64,000 nucleotides of DNA from a virus. The first letter of the stretch is position 1, and every line of letters begins with the position of its first letter. The position numbers and the translations under genes are program-made. Under the pieces are notes generated by a model. The model had not been told where the DNA came from, made no database searches, and saw nothing but the letters and a program-made list of their open reading frames with translations. Positions 6,326 through 45,246 of the stretch are shown here, one piece after another. The stretch covers positions 1 to 64,000 of the IMG/VR virus record IMGVR_UViG_3300005613_000048, one strand, 5' to 3'.

Positions 6326-6985
6326 ATGCCAGGGCGAGACACGAGATTTACGAAGGCGCTTCGAGTGCCGGTTGCAGTTGGTGAAGCCATTGGCCATAAG
6401 CCCGCCAAGGTGGTTCAGCCGATTGTATGTCCGGACTGCACTCGCTCATTGCCGCCGTCAGAGTTTCGCCGTCTGCCTGGTGATCGTCGATGCGAATCCT
6501 GCGTCAAGAAGTGGGAAGAACACAGCCGCGCACCTTATGAAGCGGATGATGTGAAGCGAGTTGCCGCCCAGCTTCTTGACGCAGCCAGCAAGGGAACCAC
6601 GGCTCCAACGCTTGACGACATGATCGGCGAGCTGATGGATCAGTTCGGTGGCTACCGAACATTCGTGATGGAGTGGGTGCTGCAACTCAAGACGGCATTC
6701 GACGCTCGACCTGGTGCTGTCTCTAACCTTCAGGCATGCGCTGCCATCGCCAAGCTCGTCGGCCTGTCCGATCGCAACAAGAACGATATCGAAATTGCAA
6801 AGATGTCGGACGATCAGATTAACAAAACGCTAGAGCTTGAAATGATGAGAATGCTCAGCGAACGCACGGACGATGAGACTCGCAAGAAGTTCATTGCCAT
6901 GCTGGCCATGAAGCAGGGTGCAGATGTCAACGCCTTGATTCCCGTCGCCAAAGACGCGGAAGGAGGTAGTGATGGCCAAGAGTAG
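6326..6985 (+). CDS. Candidate small terminase subunit with zinc-ribbon
   Basis: The 219-residue product lies immediately before the large terminase and overlaps it by 14 nt, the expected place for the DNA-recognition subunit. A CPDC...CESC pair at about residues 34-60 would bind zinc, followed by helical segments and a C-terminal region of charged helices (DDQINKTLELEMMRMLSERT). Small terminases are poorly conserved, so the call rests on position and size. Another DNA-binding packaging factor is possible. Confidence 0.55.
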   Translation: MPGRDTRFTKALRVPVAVGEAIGHKPAKVVQPIVCPDCTRSLPPSEFRRLPGDRRCESCVKKWEEHSRAPYEADDVKRVAAQLLDAASKGTTAPTLDDMIGELMDQFGGYRTFVMEWVLQLKTAFDARPGAVSNLQACAAIAKLVGLSDRNKNDIEIAKMSDDQINKTLELEMMRMLSERTDDETRKKFIAMLAMKQGADVNALIPVAKDAEGGSDGQE

Positions 6986-8765
6986 AATCCAGGAGCTGAT
7001 GCTGGAAAAGGATCGCCGCGAAACCGAGGCGCTCAAGATCTATCGTCCGTACCTGAATCAAATTCCTTTCCACCGATCGCGAGCGACAGAGCGCGTGATT
7101 CGCGGGGGCAAGCGAAGCGGTAAGTCAATTTCCGCTGCCATGGAGTTCGGCTCGATTGTCACGGGCCAGCCGATTACTGGCCCTGACGGAAAGCCGATCT
7201 CGCAATCACGACCGTATCCGAATCCGAGTTACCCACGGATCTATTGGATCATCGGATGGGGCGTGAGCCATATTGGCCAAACCATCCACAAGTTGCTGTT
7301 CCAAGACGGCATGGGTGGAACATTCCGCTGCATTCGTGACCCAAATACAAATCAGTGGCGAACATGGGACCGCACGCGACAGTGGGATCTTGATAACGTT
7401 CGCCAGTCTAAGCTGGCCGGACCAATCATTCCGGAGAGGTTCATCGTCCCAGGATCTTGGGTCTGGAACTCTTCCGGCGGTGGAGCTGCTGGCAACTGCT
7501 TTGAGTCTGTGGAGCTGATTACAGGCGCAAAGATCTTCGCTTATCCATCCTCAGCTCGCACGCCTAAGCAGGGTGACGCAGTTTCTGGAATCTGGATTGA
7601 CGAAGACATTCAGAACCCCGATCACCTTTCCGAGTATCAGGACCGCCTCGGTGACGAAAGCGGCTGGTTCCAGTGGTCGGTATGGCCGCACACGAAGAAC
7701 TTTGCTTTGATCGACATGCTCGACCGAGCGGAGCGAGAACTGGAGATTGAGCCAGAGGAGAGGAACGTCGAAACCTTCCAGCTCATCTTCAGCGAAAACC
7801 CGTTCATCACAGATCACGGCAAGCAAGCCCAGCTCGCGCGGATGGGTGATGAAGAGTCAATCGCTCGCCGCGACCGTGGCGAGCTGCTGCTCGATCAACT
7901 TTCGATGTACGACTTCAACAAGTCGCTCCACACACTTGAACGTGGATCGGTGCAGTGGGAAGAGAGGCCGACAACTGCGATCCAAGCAATCTCGCAATAC
8001 TTCTCCAGGCACGGGGCTTTGCCTGAGGACTGGACTCGATACCTGACCGTCGACCCGAGCAATACCCGCACAGCTTGTTTGTCATTTGCTGTTCCGCCGC
8101 CGATATTCCTTGGCGTCCCAATCGGCAACATGATCTTCGTTGAGTGGGAAATGACGGCCAAGAAGGCCTCTGCGAAGATTCTCGCCCAGCGGCTCATGCC
8201 ATACATGCAAGGCAAGCGATACGAAGCCTTTGTCATGGACCGCAACATGGGGCGACAGACACGAGTTGGCGATGACCAAACAGTGTTCGATGCGTACTCA
8301 AAGGAGTTCAAATCTGCGGGCCTTGTTTCTCGCCAGACACTTTCAGGTTTCATCCCAGGGTGCAACGTTCCGCCGACTCGATACCGAGCCGTGCGAGATG
8401 CGATGGCGTTGACTCCAACAGGCATGCCGCAGCTTGTGTTGATTCAAAACACAACCTCGGAGACGCAGCGAGAGTTCAATACTTATCGCAAAAAACAAAT
8501 CATGATTAGCGGCGAATTGAGCTTGCTCGATGAGCCGGCTAACCCGCGAATCCACGACTGCATGGCAGCGCTGGAGTATGGCGTCACTCACATCACAATG
8601 TTGTTTGCGACTGGCCACGCCTACGTCCCAGCGAGTGCTTATCAGAGTCAGGGAAGTCCAGCTTACAGAGCTGCGATGAAATTGAGGAAGAAGATGGAGC
8701 AGTCGGAGCGGCAGGCTGTTCATCTTGGCCCCGGTGCTGGGCCGCAGATTTACAACGCCGCGTAG
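6972..8765 (+). CDS. Terminase large subunit
   Basis: This 597-residue packaging motor has a Walker A GGKRSGKS at residues 45-52 and a Walker B-like GIWIDED near residue 205. The C-terminal part has the acidic pattern of a terminase nuclease (TVDPSNTRTACLSF near 358, FVMDRNMG near 420, and a late Asp near 530). It would translocate DNA into the prohead and cut the concatemer. ATG 6972 is chosen because GGAGG precedes it at 5 nt; a GTG lies one codon upstream. It overlaps the candidate small terminase, and the portal follows after one small gene. Confidence 0.9.
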   Translation: MAKSRIQELMLEKDRRETEALKIYRPYLNQIPFHRSRATERVIRGGKRSGKSISAAMEFGSIVTGQPITGPDGKPISQSRPYPNPSYPRIYWIIGWGVSHIGQTIHKLLFQDGMGGTFRCIRDPNTNQWRTWDRTRQWDLDNVRQSKLAGPIIPERFIVPGSWVWNSSGGGAAGNCFESVELITGAKIFAYPSSARTPKQGDAVSGIWIDEDIQNPDHLSEYQDRLGDESGWFQWSVWPHTKNFALIDMLDRAERELEIEPEERNVETFQLIFSENPFITDHGKQAQLARMGDEESIARRDRGELLLDQLSMYDFNKSLHTLERGSVQWEERPTTAIQAISQYFSRHGALPEDWTRYLTVDPSNTRTACLSFAVPPPIFLGVPIGNMIFVEWEMTAKKASAKILAQRLMPYMQGKRYEAFVMDRNMGRQTRVGDDQTVFDAYSKEFKSAGLVSRQTLSGFIPGCNVPPTRYRAVRDAMALTPTGMPQLVLIQNTTSETQREFNTYRKKQIMISGELSLLDEPANPRIHDCMAALEYGVTHITMLFATGHAYVPASAYQSQGSPAYRAAMKLRKKMEQSERQAVHLGPGAGPQIYNAA

Positions 8766-22970: not shown

Positions 22971-23458
22971 GCGCGAACACTCTGATCATTGCGAAGCGAG
23001 CTAAGGATGTTGTTGTCGAGCAGCTCGGGTTGGTTGCTGCCGACAACGCATACCAAGAAGTTCCGCATGTTCAGATCCGCAAGCGAGTAGATGGCAATCA
23101 CCGGCTGAAAGATTCTCCAATGACTTTCCAGAAGGGAATCACGATCGTCCCGACTGGCCCAAAGCCTGCTGGTGGAACAAGCGACCGAGAGGATTGGGCG
23201 CATCAGTTCCTGATTGCGATTGCATTAGGAACGCACACGGATAACCTTGATAGGGACGACTGGCCTTTTGCGGCGTGGGAGCAAGCAATTCGCCAGCGGT
23301 TGCAGCAACGCAGGCTCGGTAGCATGTCGCTACAAGATGCCTGTGAGCTGCACACGATTGTCCGACCTGGATCTCTTCCGGATTGGGCGCAGTTGGCGGA
23401 GGGCTTGGAAGCAACTTTCCTAACCCTTACCTGCTTTGTTCGCGAGGCACGCCGATGA
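22967..23458 (+). CDS. Tail terminator/minor tail-like protein
   Basis: The 163-residue product lies between the connector-like and tail-tube-like genes and overlaps both by 4 nt, the normal place of the tail terminator or head closure protein. Its size and alternating helix-strand pattern (FLIAIALGTHTD, TFLTLTCFVREARR) fit. No strong motif supports it further. Confidence 0.5.
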   Translation: MSANTLIIAKRAKDVVVEQLGLVAADNAYQEVPHVQIRKRVDGNHRLKDSPMTFQKGITIVPTGPKPAGGTSDREDWAHQFLIAIALGTHTDNLDRDDWPFAAWEQAIRQRLQQRRLGSMSLQDACELHTIVRPGSLPDWAQLAEGLEATFLTLTCFVREARR

Positions 23459-24402
23459 GTTTGAATTGTGGTGCGCAGGGTGCGTTTGCTGCCCTCGCCG
23501 TTGATGACGTTGGCGCGACCTTTGGCGCGTCTTCTGAGCGGTACGAGTTTATCGCTGAAAACACCGCTCTGCGAGAGCGAATTGTGAAGGGCGTTGGCGT
23601 AACCGGCGACCTCGATCTTATTGGCTCTCACTTGAGGCCTGGTGCGGGATTTGTTTATGGCCAACTGCTCATGAACGTCACGCCTAAGGAGTTGGACGCT
23701 TGGCTACCTCGCATATTGGGAGGCACAGAAACAGCCAATGTCCATAGTCCTGGCAACGCACTGCCGGCGTTCGACATGCTGATCAAGCGAGACACGGCAA
23801 CCTACAGGTACAACGAGTGCATGATTGCATCTGCGACATTCAGCGCAGAGACTTCGGTCGGTGGCGACGAGGACGACGAGCCGAGCTTAGTCAAGATGAT
23901 GCTGACCATCATGGGCAAAGATGAAGTTCAGGGAACTTGGGCGGAAGCCATTCCCGATGTGGACGAAGAACACAAGCTGTATTGGATCGCGGCTGACTCG
24001 GACTTAACGCTGATGGGCACAGCTTACCCGTTTGATTCGTTTCGATTGGTCATCAACAACATGCTGAAGCCGCATATCCGGAACAGCTTGCGTCCGGTGT
24101 GCATCCAGTCTCAGGGGCGTGTCGTCAACTTTGCTCCAGTGATTCCAAAGTCTGCCACGGCTGTCACTAACCTTTACTGGACCCGTCCGAACGGTGCCGG
24201 GTCGCTGGCCTTTGCGGGAAGCAAGTACATCGCCAACAGCGAGTATGTGACGACGTTTACCATGGCCAAGTTGTTCGGAGAGAAGGTGACTCCTGCTGTA
24301 CGCGGGAGAACAGAGATTCCATTGCCGCTGAATCTCACGGCTTACAAGCCTAGCGGCGGTCACTCAATCACCATCACCAACGACTTCCCGAGCCACGTTT
24401 AA
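23455..24402 (+). CDS. Major tail tube protein
   Basis: The 315-residue product starts at ATG 23455. It has the character of siphovirus tail-tube proteins: a beta-rich body with paired segments GDLDLIGSHLRPGAGF and YNECMIASATFSAETS, and a C-terminal TIMGKDEVQGTWAEA segment. It would form the tail tube stack. The presence of this gene argues for a long-tailed phage. Confidence is moderate to good because tail-tube patterns are loose. Confidence 0.65.
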   Translation: MSLNCGAQGAFAALAVDDVGATFGASSERYEFIAENTALRERIVKGVGVTGDLDLIGSHLRPGAGFVYGQLLMNVTPKELDAWLPRILGGTETANVHSPGNALPAFDMLIKRDTATYRYNECMIASATFSAETSVGGDEDDEPSLVKMMLTIMGKDEVQGTWAEAIPDVDEEHKLYWIAADSDLTLMGTAYPFDSFRLVINNMLKPHIRNSLRPVCIQSQGRVVNFAPVIPKSATAVTNLYWTRPNGAGSLAFAGSKYIANSEYVTTFTMAKLFGEKVTPAVRGRTEIPLPLNLTAYKPSGGHSITITNDFPSHV

Positions 24403-24409
24403 TCGGTAA

Positions 24410-25492
24410 ATGACATCTAAGCCCCCGATCAATGATCCCGACCGACCCGACTGGGAACTCCAGAAGGCGGTCGAGGAGACGCAGCAAGTCATCGAGAAGC
24501 GGACCAAGAAGCGGTCTCGCTTTGAGGAGCTGTTCGAGAACGCCGCCAACCTGATAGCCGATCGGCTTTCGGAGACTGTTCGCGAAGCGCTGCAGCCGCA
24601 AGCGTCGGTGCCTGGCGAACTTCCGGCCGATCCAGCCTTGGAGCCGAGTTCGATTGCTCCGATCCAGGATGCAGAGTCGGTTTCCTGGGACGCCACTGCT
24701 CCCGAACTGCCTGCGTTTCAGGCCATTGATGGCGAGGAGTCGCGAATTGCCTCAGCTCCCGCGCTGCAGTTCGAGCCGATTGACATTCAGCCGCCGCGAG
24801 AGGCAGGCCTTGGCAGTGGCGTGGAGCTGGTGACACAGTCGATCACGGCCTTGCCGGTCAACGCTCCAGCGAGTGCCAGCGTCGACCCCTCAGGGACAGC
24901 AGAACTGCCGGAGCTTCCATCTCCGTTCGCCGGTGGCGTGGTGCCGCGCAATCCTCCAGTGCAGTCCGCTGCCGGCGACGGAGAGACTCTGGAGACCGCA
25001 GCCAGCTTGCCTCCTGCCGCTTCGCAGGGGACGCCGCCAGGCACTCCGCCGACGTCCGAGCCAGTCGTTGCGGAAACTGCGTTAGAACGCGAGCTAGGGC
25101 CCATTGCGACAAGCCCCCAGTTAGCGGCTGTCAAGCCAAAGTCTGCCGAAGGAAATCCACGAGGACTCCCGTCGCTACCATTCGGCTTGACGCCTTCCGT
25201 GGTTGGTGTGAACCCAGCGGGCCGTTTGCCGCAGTGGCCGGATCCCGATGTTGAGTTGCCAAAGCCGCATTGGGATGAATCTGAAGGGCAGGCAGTCAGC
25301 TACCAGGACACGCAACGCAGCGACTGGTCGCCCCAGGTTTCCATGGCCATGGCAGACTCAGGAGACGCCCAGTCGGATTTTGCCGACGAGCTACTGCTGT
25401 ACCTGACCAAGATCCATGACAAGTACGTGGAGTTAGCAGACTCCGTACGCCGGCTGTCCAATGACCTCGACAGAGCAGGAGACGATCGGTGA
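24410..25492 (+). CDS. Pro/Ala-rich tail-region protein
   Basis: The 360-residue product has a charged helical N-terminus (WELQKAVEETQQVIEKRTKK) and an extended, probably disordered middle rich in Pro, Ala and Ser. A helical C-terminus contains YVELADSVRRLSNDLDRAG. It follows the tail-tube gene, where tail chaperones or tape measures are usual, but it is short and disordered for a tape measure. The function is unknown. Confidence 0.5.
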   Translation: MTSKPPINDPDRPDWELQKAVEETQQVIEKRTKKRSRFEELFENAANLIADRLSETVREALQPQASVPGELPADPALEPSSIAPIQDAESVSWDATAPELPAFQAIDGEESRIASAPALQFEPIDIQPPREAGLGSGVELVTQSITALPVNAPASASVDPSGTAELPELPSPFAGGVVPRNPPVQSAAGDGETLETAASLPPAASQGTPPGTPPTSEPVVAETALERELGPIATSPQLAAVKPKSAEGNPRGLPSLPFGLTPSVVGVNPAGRLPQWPDPDVELPKPHWDESEGQAVSYQDTQRSDWSPQVSMAMADSGDAQSDFADELLLYLTKIHDKYVELADSVRRLSNDLDRAGDDR

Positions 25493-26241
25493 GCGTTCAG
25501 TTTGAGTACGGAGATTATAGGCACCCGGTAGGCGAAGTCTTTCCCCGCAACTTTCGCTTACAGCCACTGATGAGCGAGCGAGGCCGGCAATGGGGACTCC
25601 GCGCGACAATGATTGTCGAGGGCTCGTTCCTGTCCCATCCAGACACGCCGCTCGACGAAGCAGCGGTCGCAACGAAAATCGCAGAGCTGGAATCGGCCTA
25701 TGAGTCGAACAACCAAAACGCCGGATTCGTCTATGCGGGTGGCACGCCAACGTCACACTACCTTACGCAGGACAGCGCATTCAACCTCACTGGCAACAGG
25801 ATCATTCACCGAGACTGGCTGTACCAAAGCCCTGCTGAGATGGCAAACACTCGATCCTTTGCCATAGGCATTAGCGCAGACTTTGCTGCCGCTGAATCTT
25901 TCATCATCAGCTTTCAGGAGACGGTGAACTTCATTGGCAATGGCGGGCCTGACTGGGACTACCAAGAGCGATGGTCTGGATCGCCGCAGCTCTTGACCTT
26001 TGCGAACCAGACCGTCGTCAGGGCTCAGCAGTCTGGCATGATGCTCTCGCTGCAACCCTTTCCGTCTGCTCCAGCGCCGCTGTGGCCCGACAACGAGCAA
26101 GGCAAGTATCGTCGCATCACTCGTCGCAACCCGCATGACCACGGGCACCCTTCCGGCAAGTACAGCCACTACATGGTAGCGTGGAGCTATCGGTTCGCAT
26201 TCCCCGCTTCACAGACTGGCAATCCAAACAACTACGGGTGA
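25489..26241 (+). CDS. Tail protein candidate, 250 aa
   Basis: It starts at GTG 25489, overlapping the previous stop. The product begins SVQFEYGDYRHPVGEVFPR and contains many aromatic and Asn/Gln residues, with strands resembling distal-tail or tail-hub domains. It lies between the disordered tail protein and the 470-residue tail-tip-like protein. Assignment is by context. Confidence 0.45.
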   Translation: MSVQFEYGDYRHPVGEVFPRNFRLQPLMSERGRQWGLRATMIVEGSFLSHPDTPLDEAAVATKIAELESAYESNNQNAGFVYAGGTPTSHYLTQDSAFNLTGNRIIHRDWLYQSPAEMANTRSFAIGISADFAAAESFIISFQETVNFIGNGGPDWDYQERWSGSPQLLTFANQTVVRAQQSGMMLSLQPFPSAPAPLWPDNEQGKYRRITRRNPHDHGHPSGKYSHYMVAWSYRFAFPASQTGNPNNYG

Positions 26242-26245
26242 TTCT

Positions 26246-27658
26246 GTGGCAGCGAGCGTACTTGTTAGCGGAGTTCAGGCATTTGCTGTCGACGGCTTTC
26301 TCCCTTCAGGATCAGAGCCTGGTCGTTTCGTAGTGGATGCTGAGCCAACCTCAAACTTCCCGCAGTTCACCACGATAACCTTCAGTGAGGTTGGGACAAC
26401 CCTTTCGTTTCCAAACTGCCGTCTTGTTGGCACACCGAAGGTGACTCGACGGGGTGCGCGTGCCGTCTACGAAGACGAGCGATGGAAACTGAGGCAAGCG
26501 ACAATGACGGCCTCATTCAACGTTCGCGGTGCCAATGGCGCGATTCACGCAGCCACCGAAAAGACAGTCACCGAACTGTGGGCGGAAATTGCAGCAGCGT
26601 CTGGCCTGACCATCAGCGTTGAGACTTCACCAACTACAAAGCCGGCAAGTTCTTGGGCTGGATTGTCAGCGGATCATGCAGCCAAACAGTTGCTTGAGCG
26701 AACGGTGTCAACGCTGTTTTATGATGCAGCCAATGGAACATGGAAGGTTTTTCGCCGTGGCGTCGGTAGCCTTCCGGATCTCTCTCCGAGGGTCTTTCGC
26801 GAAGTCACCGCGACCAAGCCAGCTACGCTCAATGTGTATTCTTCGCCCAACCTTTATGTTGCCAAGGTGAGTTGCACAGCAAAGCTCATGGATAATGCTG
26901 GTTCGCTGGTAGACTTTGACGCAGGCACGGCAGAGGCAGTAGATATTTGGGGCGGATTCAGCGGCGCATCTGCCACGCATCGAGAGCATTACATCGCCTC
27001 GGCAATGAGAGTCTGGGAGCCTGTTTCGACAGCCTACCCTGAAGCGATTAACGCGAGCGACATGCTGTTTGCCAACCATCGACTGCTTTCGCTCTGTCCA
27101 AGCAGTGGCGAGATGATCGCGGTCAGTCCGCAGGCGATAGCACCATCAATGCGATACGGTGCTTCAGCCTTTCGCACAAGCGTGACAGATGGTTCGTCAG
27201 ACATTGGCTCCCGCGTCATCGACGGCAAGTACATCCTGTGCGATAGCCCGGTATTAGTGCCAAACGCTGATGGCGATATTAGAACTACACTCGACTTTGC
27301 CATTGCCTACGCATGGAAGGAAACAGGCAAGCTCAAGCGGCAATTGGAGACCCGTGCGATAGCAGGCGGATCGGGTGAAGTCGACATCTACGCAGACTGG
27401 GTCACTTTCTCATACAGCGATCTGTCGACCATGCCGCTAACGCAGACAGATCCAGAGGCCGAGCTTGATTCGTTAGCTGATTCGTTCTCCACTGCCTACT
27501 CTCAAGATGCGTACTGCGTCCGCTTACCTTCGATTGTGAACTACTCTCCAAGTGGTCAGACTGGGGCAGTTCGGCTGATGTGCAGCATGTATCCTGCGAG
27601 GCGAGCTGAGACGAACATCGCACTCAACTATCAGCCGAAGTCGGGAGTGAATCTATGA
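26246..27658 (+). CDS. Tail-tip/baseplate hub-like protein
   Basis: The 470-residue product starts at GTG 26246. It has beta-rich N-terminal repeats, a region with a tail-hub-like layout at about 100-200 (ELWAEIAAASGLTISVE..AAKQLLERTVSTLFYD), and a long mixed domain. The '(A/S)...LL..L....G' motif reminiscent of LysM-like or hub oligomerisation segments is weak. Genome order fits a tail hub or baseplate component. The exact family is not recognised. Confidence 0.5.
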   Translation: MAASVLVSGVQAFAVDGFLPSGSEPGRFVVDAEPTSNFPQFTTITFSEVGTTLSFPNCRLVGTPKVTRRGARAVYEDERWKLRQATMTASFNVRGANGAIHAATEKTVTELWAEIAAASGLTISVETSPTTKPASSWAGLSADHAAKQLLERTVSTLFYDAANGTWKVFRRGVGSLPDLSPRVFREVTATKPATLNVYSSPNLYVAKVSCTAKLMDNAGSLVDFDAGTAEAVDIWGGFSGASATHREHYIASAMRVWEPVSTAYPEAINASDMLFANHRLLSLCPSSGEMIAVSPQAIAPSMRYGASAFRTSVTDGSSDIGSRVIDGKYILCDSPVLVPNADGDIRTTLDFAIAYAWKETGKLKRQLETRAIAGGSGEVDIYADWVTFSYSDLSTMPLTQTDPEAELDSLADSFSTAYSQDAYCVRLPSIVNYSPSGQTGAVRLMCSMYPARRAETNIALNYQPKSGVNL

Positions 27659-28287
27659 GCCTCTCCCACGCGATACCAGGAGACCAGGCGTGCGTTCCGA
27701 TTCCGGTGCTGCTGCACAACTCAAGCGGAGTGTCTTTGCCGCCATTCAGCCCGTGTGAAGTGGTTGGAGCCTATGCAATGCCAGCGTCAGGCGATCGACG
27801 CTGGACCGATCAAATTGCGCTGACTGTGTCAACATTTAGCGATAGCTGTCATGTTCGATCAATAGCGGCCAGCTCCAGCTTTAGGATTTTGCCAGGAAAG
27901 ATTGGCCCAGGATACATCGGGTCTGTCCTCCCTTTGAATGTTGCTGGGACCGTAGGTCATTCATTCAAGCAGACAAAAAACGCGTTTGGCATTACTGCTG
28001 GGTTTGGACCAATCATAAAGATCGACGGCCTGAGTCCTTCTTTGTTTCGAGTCAACACAGAGCCTGACTACCTTTTCATTTTTACCTTAACGAGTGAGTG
28101 GGGATTACAGGATGGCGGTCTCGTTGCTGACGCCTCAATTCGATCTGTTACCAGCGCAACTGCCCTGGTTGTAAGCGACAAGGTGTACGATCCGCTGAGC
28201 GTCTTTGAAGAGTTGACTATCGGAGACAAAGGCTACTGCTTGTTGCAAAAGGGTAAGTTCTATGCAATCCAAGCGCCGTGCCCGTGA
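27655..28287 (+). CDS. Tail-associated hypothetical protein
   Basis: The 210-residue product overlaps the previous stop by 4 nt. It is strand-rich, with Gly/Ser and few charged residues (IPVLLHNSSGVSLPPFSPCE, GKIGPGYIGSVLPLNV). No catalytic or membrane feature is visible. It ends the contiguous tail-tip run. A 10-mer TTGACTATCG inside it is coding. Confidence 0.5.
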   Translation: MSLSHAIPGDQACVPIPVLLHNSSGVSLPPFSPCEVVGAYAMPASGDRRWTDQIALTVSTFSDSCHVRSIAASSSFRILPGKIGPGYIGSVLPLNVAGTVGHSFKQTKNAFGITAGFGPIIKIDGLSPSLFRVNTEPDYLFIFTLTSEWGLQDGGLVADASIRSVTSATALVVSDKVYDPLSVFEELTIGDKGYCLLQKGKFYAIQAPCP

Positions 28288-28295
28288 GGTGATTT

Positions 28296-28844
28296 ATGGG
28301 ATGGTATGGACCTGCCGGCGATTGCGGCTGCTGCAAAAGTGAATCATCATCCGTGGCATCAAGCGAATCGTCTAGCGCCTCTTCAAGCAGCTCCGCCAGT
28401 AGCTCTTCGTCTAGTCAGTCATCATCAGTTTCATCAAGCGCAGTGAAGTCGCAACCTTCGTCCGTCAGCTCGTCGCTGCCGGCGTCAAGATCGTCGGTTT
28501 CAGGGTCAGATACAAACTCAGTATCTTCTTTGAGCAGTTACCAACGATCGTCATTCGCTCCGTCTTCTTCGCTGACTGTGTCAAGTTCTGCCAGCGATTC
28601 AGGATCTTCTAGCTTGCCAGCAAGTTCTAGCATTGCATCCAGCCGGTCGGCTTCTGCCGCGAGTGGGTCGGAAAGCAGCGCTTTATTGCCGCCACAGCCT
28701 GACGATTGTTGTGGCACAGTGCAGCCATCTGTGCCCGGTTCATTCATTGGAGAAATCACGTTGACATTCTGTACGACAGGTCAAGGGTTTGAGTTAATAT
28801 GCACTTGGGAATGGGACGGGAGTAAATGGGATTATCTTGGATAG
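28296..28844 (+). CDS. Serine-rich low-complexity protein
   Basis: The 182-residue product has an N-terminal GDCGCCK cluster, then about 120 residues that are mostly serine with scattered Ala, Val and Gln, and a C-terminal folded part (EITLTFCTTGQGFELICTWE). Ser-rich stalks of this type are potential O-glycosylation substrates. Two glycosyltransferase-like genes follow directly. AGG lies 7 nt before the ATG. The last residues overlap the start of the next gene by 19 nt. Confidence 0.7.
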   Translation: MGWYGPAGDCGCCKSESSSVASSESSSASSSSSASSSSSSQSSSVSSSAVKSQPSSVSSSLPASRSSVSGSDTNSVSSLSSYQRSSFAPSSSLTVSSSASDSGSSSLPASSSIASSRSASAASGSESSALLPPQPDDCCGTVQPSVPGSFIGEITLTFCTTGQGFELICTWEWDGSKWDYLG

Positions 28845-30100
28845 ACTGCGAAAATCGCATTGGAGAATGCTGTGGCGTGGCGTCTAAGCATGCTGGCAAA
28901 GCCGTGCCTGCTCAACAAGACGCATGTAATACATGTGTCAGTTGCGAGAAACCAAATCAGCTTAATAAAGTCACGGCATCATTGGCAATGCAGGCGATTG
29001 GATTTCCGATACCAGATGACAAGCGGTATCTTTTTGGTGAAGTAGTAGAAAAGCAAGAAGGGCCAGGGACCGAACTAAAAAAACTGCTTTCTTGGTTCTG
29101 GTGGCCAAAGAAAAAGTGCGAAAGATGCGCCAATCGCGTTCTTAAAATGAACAAATGGGGTGCCGAGAAATGTCGCAAAAGACGCAGTCTTATCATTATG
29201 TGGCTACATCAGTCTGCGGAAAAGCATGGCATTCCATTCAGCCATTTTGCCGCCGGCGTCATGGTCGACATGGCAATCGCCAGCGCTGAGCGCAAAGCTA
29301 TTCAAAAGCCTGGATCAGTTGTCGTTAAGAGCAAGGAAAAGTACACGGCTGTGTGGGTTTATTGGAAGGGTGGCGCGTATGCCGATGAGCTGGAGTATTC
29401 GATACGCTCAGCTATAAATAACCTGTCTGACTTGCGAAATGTTGTGGTTTGCGGAGACCATCCAGGGGATTGGTACGATGGAGACTTTATACATTCAAAA
29501 AGGTTCAACAAGCAAGATGGACGCGACAAATTCGGAAGCGGTAGATTTTGCAAGTGGATAGATAGCGCAGTAAAACTTCAGCGAATTATTGAAAGTGAAC
29601 TCGTGTCAGAGTCATTTCTCTGGATGTACGACGATACATTCATACTTCAGCCATGGAGCATAGAGCAGATGGCGATTCTCCGTGCTGGAGGAAACTTGTG
29701 GAACTACGAAACCATTAACAAACCTGTGCGGAAAACCTGGCGAGAAGTAATGCGGAGAACTGCTAAGTCACTCGTGGAAAGGGGGCTGCAACAACGCAAT
29801 TATTCAACTCATTACCCAGTCGTTTACCAAAAGCGTTTACTACAGCAAACGATTGACGATTTCGACTTACTAAACAAAGCTAGGCTAGTGGAGAGTCTGT
29901 ACCTGAATCACCACTTCAAAGACCCAGCTTCGGTTGACGATGTTTTTCAGTATTCGCAGCGACCGCAAGCAGGGTGGGCACCGAAGGCAGGCATTCCAGT
30001 AGTAAACGTAGGCGGCTTTAACGCTGCGGTTCAGGCCTTCATTAAGCCGATGTTCGCTAAGAGCGTTGCAATCCCAAAAAAGGTTCAAAACAATGATTGA
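28826..30100 (+). CDS. Stealth-like glycosyl/phosphotransferase with Cys-rich N-terminus
   Basis: The 424-residue product has a Cys-rich N-terminal segment (CENRIGECCG, CNTCVSCEK; then CERCANRV) that probably binds zinc. The C-terminal half resembles Stealth or capsular hexose-phosphate transferases: ELEYSIRSAINNLSDLRNVV, then VVCGDHPGDWYDGD, and WMYDDTFILQPW as an acidic 'DD' motif. It would modify a sugar or surface component. Overlap with the Ser-rich gene and coupling with the GT-radical SAM gene suggest a common modification pathway. The family call is by motif. Confidence 0.6.
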   Translation: MGLSWIDCENRIGECCGVASKHAGKAVPAQQDACNTCVSCEKPNQLNKVTASLAMQAIGFPIPDDKRYLFGEVVEKQEGPGTELKKLLSWFWWPKKKCERCANRVLKMNKWGAEKCRKRRSLIIMWLHQSAEKHGIPFSHFAAGVMVDMAIASAERKAIQKPGSVVVKSKEKYTAVWVYWKGGAYADELEYSIRSAINNLSDLRNVVVCGDHPGDWYDGDFIHSKRFNKQDGRDKFGSGRFCKWIDSAVKLQRIIESELVSESFLWMYDDTFILQPWSIEQMAILRAGGNLWNYETINKPVRKTWREVMRRTAKSLVERGLQQRNYSTHYPVVYQKRLLQQTIDDFDLLNKARLVESLYLNHHFKDPASVDDVFQYSQRPQAGWAPKAGIPVVNVGGFNAAVQAFIKPMFAKSVAIPKKVQNND

Positions 30101-31598
30101 TCAACTGACTTTAGTCACGCCATTAAAAGCGGTGTGCAGATATCGACTTAGGAACTGGAGCGTTCTGCAACAGCATTTTCGGAATATTGGCGTCGACTGG
30201 ATTGTTGCGGAAAATTCATCGCTAGCAGCCAACGTGCCGGGCGTGAGGCGGATTGCCATAGAACCCTTTTCGATCGCAGCAGCCAGGAATGCTGGAATGA
30301 AGGAGGTGAACACTGACCATGTGTGCTTTATTGACGCCGACTTGCTAATCAGGAAGTCGGATTTTTACGCGGCTTACAAAGCTTTCCTGGAAGGTGACTA
30401 CGACATTTACTCACCTTACGACACAGTAGTTCGCTGCGGCAGACAGAACTCGTCGATAGCATCTGAGAGAGGCGACTACATTCGCTGGTCCTACTTAAAG
30501 CAAAAGCGAGGGAATTATCGCCAGGCAGCAAACTTCTGCGGCGGCTCTGTCTTTATGAAGACAGAGGTTGCGAGAGAATTGGGTGGGTATGACGAAAGAT
30601 TCGTTGAGTGGGGATTTGAAGACGTTGCACTTGACAAGCTCGCAAAGAAGTCGCGCAAAAGAATGGGTATGCACCGCGCAGATAGCTTTCATTTGTGGCA
30701 TCCAAGAGTTAGCGGACTAGCATCTTCTAAGAGGTTCTTTGAAACAGAGTATCGACTACCGATTGCAAGTGTCGTGGAAAGGAAGTCTTTAGTTAGCATA
30801 AACCGATTTGAGTATCACGTAACAGACACTTGCAATCTTCACTGCGTACAGTGCAGCCACTACAGCAACTTTACCACGAAAGGAATGCGAACCGTTGACC
30901 AGGTCAGAGAGGAACTGGAGCCATGGTCTACGAGGATACTTCCAGGCATGGTGTGCTTGCTCGGCGGAGAACCTACTGTCAACAAGGACCTGGTCCCGAT
31001 TATGTACCTTGTTTCAGAGTTGTTCCCGAGGTCCGAAATCATGCTAGTTACGAACGGCTTCTTTCTTCAAAAACATCCAGACCTTGCGAGTGCGGTTGCC
31101 GAACTTGATGTAAACCTTCAGGTTTCCAAGCATCACGAGTCTGTTGAGTACAATCAAAAGTTTTCAGAAATCCTCAGCGTACTTGAGCAGTGGAAGCAAG
31201 ACGTTGAAGGATTTAATTTTCATGTGCGGCGGTCGCTCAAGAAGTGGATGCAGCAATACGATGTCAGGGATGACGGGAAAGCATATCCAATACGCAGCAG
31301 GCCTACCTACGCGTGGAGCGCATGCGTGCAGAAATACTGCCACCAGATCTACCGTGGTAAGTTATGGAAATGCCCTGCGATAGCGTACTTTAAGAACTTA
31401 GAGGAGAAACTTGGTCTGCAAGAGGTTGCCGACTGGGATCGCTTCAGGGCATACCAGCCACTGTCTCCAGACTGTTCCACTTTTGAACTGCAAAACTTTG
31501 TGTACGAAAAAGCAATTAGCGCGTGCGGATTGTGTCCTCAAAACCCGAAGAAGATTCCAATTCCGAACCCAATGCACTTGCCTGTCATAGAGAGTTAG
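30093..31598 (+). CDS. Glycosyltransferase-radical SAM/SPASM fusion
   Basis: The 501-residue product has two modules. Residues 1-210 look like a GT-A glycosyltransferase: FSIAAARNAGM, a DXD-like HVCFIDADLL near 79, and a GGYDERFVEWGFEDVAL segment near 160 as in galactosyltransferase C-terminal domains. Residues 240-500 are a radical SAM domain with CNLHCVQC (CX3CX2C) near 246 and CLLGGEPT near 289, followed by C-terminal cysteines (CVQKYCHQ, KCPA, CGLCPQ) typical of SPASM auxiliary clusters. It would combine sugar transfer with radical chemistry on a peptide or sugar. ATG 30093 overlaps the previous stop. Confidence 0.8.
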   Translation: MIDQLTLVTPLKAVCRYRLRNWSVLQQHFRNIGVDWIVAENSSLAANVPGVRRIAIEPFSIAAARNAGMKEVNTDHVCFIDADLLIRKSDFYAAYKAFLEGDYDIYSPYDTVVRCGRQNSSIASERGDYIRWSYLKQKRGNYRQAANFCGGSVFMKTEVARELGGYDERFVEWGFEDVALDKLAKKSRKRMGMHRADSFHLWHPRVSGLASSKRFFETEYRLPIASVVERKSLVSINRFEYHVTDTCNLHCVQCSHYSNFTTKGMRTVDQVREELEPWSTRILPGMVCLLGGEPTVNKDLVPIMYLVSELFPRSEIMLVTNGFFLQKHPDLASAVAELDVNLQVSKHHESVEYNQKFSEILSVLEQWKQDVEGFNFHVRRSLKKWMQQYDVRDDGKAYPIRSRPTYAWSACVQKYCHQIYRGKLWKCPAIAYFKNLEEKLGLQEVADWDRFRAYQPLSPDCSTFELQNFVYEKAISACGLCPQNPKKIPIPNPMHLPVIES

Positions 31599-44226: not shown

Positions 44227-45246
44227 ATGGAAAACACTGATATTGAATACGTGCATCACTCTTTCAGCCCGTGGCGCGGATGCACGGAAATTGATGCTGG
44301 CTGTCGATTCTGCTTCGCAAAGCGTGGCTCAGATCGCAACCCGAGAATCTTAGGCAAATGGGGTGATGCAGGGAGTCGCGTCGTGGCGAGCCCGAAGGCC
44401 TGGAGAGAGATGCGGGCTCTTGATCGCAAATGTGGACGCATGGGTATTAAGCAGCGAGTGCTATGCCACTGGTGCGATCCTTTCGAGGATTGGACTGGCC
44501 CGATGATTGACCACGTTGGAAATCGCTTGGAATACTGCGATCAATGCCACAAGGTGCTATGGTCTTTCGACAAGCCGTGCCCGTGTGCCAAACGATTCAA
44601 ACGCATGGCTACGATGCACGATGTGCGTCATGAATACATGATGATGATTGAGAGCTGCCAGAATCTAATATGGCTTCTCACGACTAAGCGACCCGAAAAC
44701 ATTCGCAGTTTTTGGGAAGGCTACGCGGGCTTCAACATTGCGCTCGGGATTAGTGTTTGCAACACGGCTGATGCGCTTAAGAAGTTCGACATCTTTCGCG
44801 ATTGCATGTACCTAGCTGAGACGTCGTGGATCTCCGCAGAGCCTTTAATCGGTGCGCTAGACTTGGTCGAGGCTCGCGTGCTGCCACGGTACGAGTGCGG
44901 CACTTGCGGCGCTGTCGTGACTGATTACTCGCATGACTCTGACGATGTTTGTCGTACTTGCGAGTCTACCATGAGTTTTCAATTTGACTGTGTTGACTGG
45001 TTGGTTGTTGGAGGTGAGAGCGGTGGCCGGGCTCGCTCTTGCAATCCTGATTGGATACGGAAAATCGTCCGCGATTGCGATCGAGCTGATGTGCCGTGCT
45101 TCGTCAAGCAACTCGGAAGCAATCCGGACGGCGTTCAAGTCGCCGATCCAAAGGGCGGCAACATGGACGAGTGGCCAAAAGATCTTCGCGTTCGACAGTA
45201 CCCTGAATCCTTTGGAGATTGCAATGATGCACCAACCGTCGTTTGA
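44227..45246 (+). CDS. DUF5131 (phage Gp37/Gp68) family protein
   Basis: The 339-residue product matches the DUF5131 pattern: SPWRGCTEIDAGCRFCFA near residue 12, PFEDW, WLLTTKRPENI, and WLVVGGESGGRARSCNP near 265. A long insertion with CDQCHK, CPCAKR and CGTCG/CRTC pairs adds two zinc sites. These proteins have a radical-SAM-like cysteine layout of unproven chemistry and are common in phages. GATGGAG precedes the ATG. It overlaps the next small gene by 23 nt. Confidence 0.85.
   Translation: MENTDIEYVHHSFSPWRGCTEIDAGCRFCFAKRGSDRNPRILGKWGDAGSRVVASPKAWREMRALDRKCGRMGIKQRVLCHWCDPFEDWTGPMIDHVGNRLEYCDQCHKVLWSFDKPCPCAKRFKRMATMHDVRHEYMMMIESCQNLIWLLTTKRPENIRSFWEGYAGFNIALGISVCNTADALKKFDIFRDCMYLAETSWISAEPLIGALDLVEARVLPRYECGTCGAVVTDYSHDSDDVCRTCESTMSFQFDCVDWLVVGGESGGRARSCNPDWIRKIVRDCDRADVPCFVKQLGSNPDGVQVADPKGGNMDEWPKDLRVRQYPESFGDCNDAPTVV

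Follow-up and report, generated by a model that had tools for sequence, protein, structure and literature searches.

A serine-rich protein gene, a divergent Stealth-type transferase gene and a glycosyltransferase-radical SAM fusion in a phage tail operon: a possible module for tail glycosylation

The window analyzed here comprises 64 kb of the 70,857 bases of the virus record IMGVR_UViG_3300005613_000048. At 28296-31598, the three overlapping genes described by the initial annotation were confirmed: a gene for a Ser-rich protein, a transferase gene and a gene fusing a glycosyltransferase (GT) with a radical SAM domain, all on the plus strand. The first two overlap by 19 nt and the latter two by 8 nt if the third gene begins at its likely start ATG 30093 rather than at TTG 30066, and these overlaps suggest translational coupling. 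They follow a run of tail genes on the same strand (23383..28287), giving the operon order tail genes, Ser-rich gene, transferase gene and GT-radical SAM gene. This run consists of a minor-tail-like gene (23383) with a weak match to the phrog_290 minor tail family (E=1e-4), gene 24410, and three genes named from their position as distal-tail-like (25489), hub-like (26246) and tip-like (27655). As revealed by tblastn, homologs of 23383, 25489, and 26246 stand in identical order in contig L006/L007, and homologs of 25489 occur with partial synteny in L008 and the planctomycete provirus L168. Judged from metagenome-assembled genome (MAG) titles and from its tail and radical SAM kinship, this tailed virus likely has a host among the Planctomycetota.

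The first gene (28296..28844, +) encodes a protein of 182 aa, of which 69 are Ser, reaching 28 Ser per 40 residues within a tract spanning approximately residues 14-130, with Cys motifs near both ends. Its designation as serine-rich holds; elsewhere in the window, the likely genes stay within 9-10 Ser per 40 residues. All six Ser codons are mixed (TCA 17, AGC 14, TCT 14, TCG 12, AGT 8, and TCC 4), which places the enrichment at the protein level rather than in a DNA microsatellite or repeat artefact. The protein is probably a virion component at or near the tail tip, as suggested by its gene position and by the Ser-rich genes of contig L002 and provirus G004, which follow soon after a clear tape-measure gene. 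The virion stalk setting proposed initially is supported insofar as the genes lie in the tail module. An even longer tail-operon protein of this kind is encoded at L095:6650-9682 (-), with 1010 aa and 381 Ser within a 620-residue stretch.

Serine-rich repeat glycoproteins of the GspB/Fap1 type likewise combine a long Ser-rich tract with an adjacent GT cluster. The window locus shares the long tract adjoining GT genes, but it lies in a phage tail operon and contains other enzymes. Moreover, reading of the 182-aa sequence showed no signal peptide or wall anchor, and no accessory Sec genes were recognized among the neighbors.

The second gene (28826-30100, +) encodes a 424-aa protein composed of a Cys-rich N-terminal domain (28826..29320; motif GPGxELKK...CxxC...MNxWGAExCR) and a divergent Stealth-type transferase domain (29321..30100). 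The match to the Pfam family Stealth_CR2 remains below the curated cut-off (E=0.0035, 18 bits vs 39.4), and a comparison by hhalign of three phage Stealth-like sequences with one true Stealth protein yielded a probability of 1.6%. A fold search using a low-confidence model (mean pLDDT 47) returned GlcNAc-1-phosphotransferase (GNPTAB) as the top three PDB matches (E 3e-4 to 8e-4, TM about 0.23). In addition, a profile of three phage homologs retrieved three planctomycete proteins matching Stealth_CR2 with E 4e-7 to 9e-16, two of which pass the curated cut-off; as intermediates, these proteins bridge the phage sequences and the Stealth family. The Cys-rich, Stealth-like character of the enzyme is hence retained, in a divergent form. 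Residues D269-D270, H329, and N361 are kept in six relatives, the DD pair and the His being invariant in six sequences (three phage, three planctomycete), whereas Asn-394 is found in the three phage proteins and R353 in two of these three. The catalytic residues of human GlcNAc-1-phosphotransferase are D408, H956, R986, N1151, and R322 (PMC11418123). Equivalences to the first four were drawn from our own alignment, outside any confirmed profile match, and Arg-322 finds no clear counterpart in the phage transferase, making phosphosugar transfer unsure. Taken together, the best fold matches of the low-confidence model, the kept DD and His, and the planctomycete relatives suggest a resemblance to GNPTAB and Stealth proteins, from which the enzyme differs by the sub-threshold profile score, the missing clear Arg-322 equivalent and the fusion to a Cys-rich domain. 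Searches by tblastn in named phages with the Stealth-like protein and with the Cys-domain protein gave no match.

The third gene (30066-31598, +) encodes the fused enzyme, for which all Pfam matches exceed the cut-off (Glycos_transf_2 E=9e-8, Glyco_transf_7C E=2e-6, Radical_SAM E=8e-10). Its N-terminal GT-A domain (30093..30776) carries a DxD motif (D90-A-D92) and a WGxED-type motif (W182-G-F-E185-D186; numbering from TTG 30066), in line with a GT-A enzyme of the GT2/GT7C-like type. The C-terminal half (30777..31598) belongs to the radical SAM superfamily, showing the CX3CX2C motif (C256, C260, C263), a GGEP motif and the profile match. Besides these three Cys, four further ones (C420, C436, C487, C490) are invariant, so that all seven are present in 33/33 relatives. 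The structural model of this half (pLDDT 92) matched SpeY best (E=7e-12, 17% identity, TM about 0.6), followed by EpeE, BtrN, and MoaA at about 1e-6, with SuiB and viperin also among the matches. In BtrN, a cyclitol hydroxyl is oxidized and the auxiliary cluster is held by four Cys (PMC9012708). Based on the SpeY-like fold and the four additional Cys, we assign the C-terminus to the Twitch type with one auxiliary cluster; cluster binding as well as dehydrogenase activity are predicted from the sequence and the model. The GT-A and radical SAM halves of the fusion had thus been recognized correctly, but the SPASM domain proposed alongside them was rejected, since only four further Cys are invariant and Pfam returned no SPASM profile match.

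The closest solved relatives of the radical SAM half oxidize antibiotic sugars and cyclitols. It shares with SpeY and BtrN the fold and the CX3CX2C motif plus four further invariant Cys, and differs by an identity of about 17%, its fusion to a GT-A domain and its phage origin. Because the best structural match, SpeY, is a Twitch radical SAM dehydrogenase and the next group includes BtrN, which acts as a cyclitol dehydrogenase, sugar oxidation or epimerization appears likelier than peptide maturation, although at 17% identity and a TM of about 0.6 substrate and reaction type can differ. The relatives in marine phages adjoin genes for carbamoyltransferases, DegT aminotransferases, oxygenases, GDP-mannose dehydratases, and glycosyltransferases, while most of their neighbors matched none of these enzyme classes. 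Fold, Cys pattern and such sugar-enzyme neighbors make sugar tailoring the best guess. Ser-rich ORFs at these marine loci were short, lay on the minus strand and were discounted, being regarded as shadow frames of other genes.

Among 62 radical SAM domains placed in a tree, that of the window is sister (100/98) to seven sequences. Five of these come from Ser-rich proviruses and the other two from a Planctomycetaceae MAG, a different contig of which harbors genes of both the Ser-rich and the Cys-domain type; the long branch of the window's domain (1.25) renders its exact place less sure. A joint alignment of the GT and radical SAM halves was discarded because GT rows fell on radical SAM columns. 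A scan of viral contigs with the GT-radical SAM enzyme as a single protein gave no match, and L160/L170 was dismissed as a further long fusion, as the N-terminal half of the frame looks out-of-frame. A search for the fusion elsewhere, as suggested initially, led among 392 planctomycete genomes to a second GT2-radical SAM fusion in the tail operon of the G392 provirus (L168:8722-10515, -). This protein of 597 aa has a Cys-rich N-terminus, and each of its two domains exceeds the Pfam cut-off. Its gene overlaps by 4 nt the last gene of a tail run that includes a homolog of 25489, and a Ser-rich gene is absent from this provirus. The GT of this second fusion seemingly differs in kind from that of the window, so that separate origins of both fusions are possible, which supports joint action of GT and radical SAM domain.

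To examine the association of these genes, loci were fetched by the Cys-rich domain alone, disregarding Ser-rich and glycan genes. Stand-alone homologs of this domain exist in proviruses (E about 2e-18), and the scan covered 33 loci, 15 close and 18 distant. In 15/15 close loci, a Ser-rich gene (632-1062 aa) lies directly upstream and ends 4 nt inside the Cys-domain gene, while a gene for a GT25-sulfotransferase fusion lies directly downstream in all 14 uncut ones. Further downstream, GT2 genes account for 16/34 scanned ORFs and a radical SAM gene was seen in six loci. In contrast, a Ser-rich gene was found in 0/18 distant loci and a glycosyltransferase in 0/31 of their downstream ORFs. The close loci all belong to a single lineage, and among them are the two records that had prompted the query (L009/L010); they represent one evolutionary association rather than fifteen, and 15/15 vs 0/18 does not amount to 33 independent events. 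The cassettes of proviruses G004/G005 comprise a tape measure, a Ser-rich protein of 974-1010 aa, the Cys-domain protein, the GT25-sulfotransferase, GT2s, and a radical SAM gene. Two cassettes are built differently from this provirus type, that of the window and that of L002, in which a tape measure is followed by a Ser-rich gene (28/40 Ser), a Stealth-like gene overlapping by 4 nt, another Ser-tailed protein and a WecB-type UDP-GlcNAc 2-epimerase.

Several minor observations were made in addition. The GT25-sulfotransferase fusions of the Ser-rich proviruses (L121-L135, at about 6332-7930) indicate that their glycan may be sulfated, and the isolate record IMG 2824432718 contains four proviruses of this type (L122, L130, L131, L133). 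Among the distant relatives (L136-L153), several carry calcineurin-like phosphoesterases downstream and none a glycosyltransferase according to Pfam. The window itself encodes another Cys-rich protein of 339 aa (22 Cys) at 44227-45246, matching phrog_2045 (E=4e-42).

Considering these data, we give roughly even chances to the explanation that the three genes form a phage-encoded module that glycosylates the Ser-rich tail protein and subsequently modifies the sugar by radical chemistry. Sequence and structure support the enzyme classes, homology and position the tail location, and the repeated association the functional coupling. The Ser-rich protein would sit on the virion at or near the tail tip, and the Stealth-type transferase would attach a sugar or sugar-1-phosphate to its Ser tract, perhaps being held near its target by the fused Cys-rich domain. 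The GT-A half would add a further sugar, from which the Twitch radical SAM half would abstract a hydrogen atom at a carbinol carbon in the manner of SpeY/BtrN-type enzymes, and fold and Cys pattern point to a keto or epimerized sugar as product. The Ser-rich protein as substrate and the chemistry are what we infer; on the basis of genomic association, the module appears real, recurrent, and functionally plausible. The specific picture of a tail stalk whose Ser tract bears sugars, possibly sugar-1-phosphates, oxidized or epimerized by a GT-fused radical SAM enzyme is more tentative, and we would put it at somewhat less than even. Radical chemistry on a sugar-bearing product, as anticipated by the initial annotation, fits the resemblance to sugar and cyclitol dehydrogenases. 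Of the two alternatives it offered, glycosylation or peptide modification, the former is favored by the recurrence of glycan enzymes with Ser-rich proteins, while no positive sign of the latter was obtained.

A different substrate is the most serious competing possibility, albeit one to which we ascribe a rather low probability: the enzymes would act on another virion protein, either a further tail-tip protein or the Cys-rich protein, the Ser-rich protein being a flexible linker only. L006 retains the Stealth-like gene next to genes with only short Ser tracts, with the GT-radical SAM gene not found in its record, and the G392 provirus combines tail genes and a GT2-radical SAM fusion in the absence of a Ser-rich gene. 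Against this stand the co-occurrence with Ser-rich and GT25 genes in close but not distant Cys-domain homologs and the joint presence of a Ser-rich protein and glycan enzymes in three differently composed cassettes. In view of L006 and the G392 provirus, there may be substrates besides the Ser-rich protein. Slightly less probable again is an alteration of host envelope sugars of the seroconversion type, blocking superinfection or changing the receptor. Host glycans are the target of many known phage glycosyltransferases of such sort, and marine radical SAM relatives reside in sugar clusters not adjoining Ser-rich genes. However, the genes lie inside the virion operon and overlap the Ser-rich gene, the transferase is fused to a domain elsewhere coupled to a Ser-rich gene, and neither flippase, polymerase nor membrane-anchored GT was recognized among the three genes. 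We regard as improbable that the radical SAM half is a RiPP-like peptide maturase acting on the Ser/Cys protein, with the GT half decorating the product. The Cys motifs that the Ser-rich protein carries near either end and the matches to EpeE and SuiB would suit such a role, but the mixed group of EpeE, BtrN, and MoaA scores five orders weaker than SpeY, the invariant Cys suffice for one auxiliary cluster only, and relatives are often neighbored by sugar enzymes. A viperin-like antiviral nucleotide enzyme, for which viperin structures among the fold matches and a PADLOC pVip match (E=2e-8) would speak, was rejected as very improbable, since the pVip match is confined to a shared radical SAM core of about 90 residues, and the Twitch Cys and GT fusion are without counterpart there.

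Virion glycosylation as such is already known, and the window set can be regarded, from its genes, as a variant with a Ser-rich tail protein and a GT-fused radical SAM enzyme. For mycobacteriophages Che8 and Rita, virion glycosylation by phage enzymes has been described (Freeman et al. 2023, as cited in PMC11256854). According to that source, phage-encoded glycosyltransferases are likewise credited with glycans on virion proteins, but the targets named there are capsid proteins, whereas the window offers a Ser-rich tail-operon protein known from its gene, together with a Stealth-type enzyme and a GT-fused radical SAM domain. Our search of open-licence literature found no paper on such a gene set, in agreement with the initial view that no phage system of this composition had been described.

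If the tail glycosylation module holds true, planctomycete phages would possess a dedicated pathway for making their own glycoprotein tails, and a virion glycan would be tailored by radical SAM chemistry of the type familiar from antibiotic sugars. The theme recurs in related viruses, suggesting that they put sugars with unusual modifications on their own tails, and the system would offer a setting in which to study why a phage should glycosylate its tail. It would also suggest a function for the radical SAM family found in many marine phage contigs; in several of these (within L013-L057), two radical SAM genes belonging to the family are separated by about 3-4 kb.
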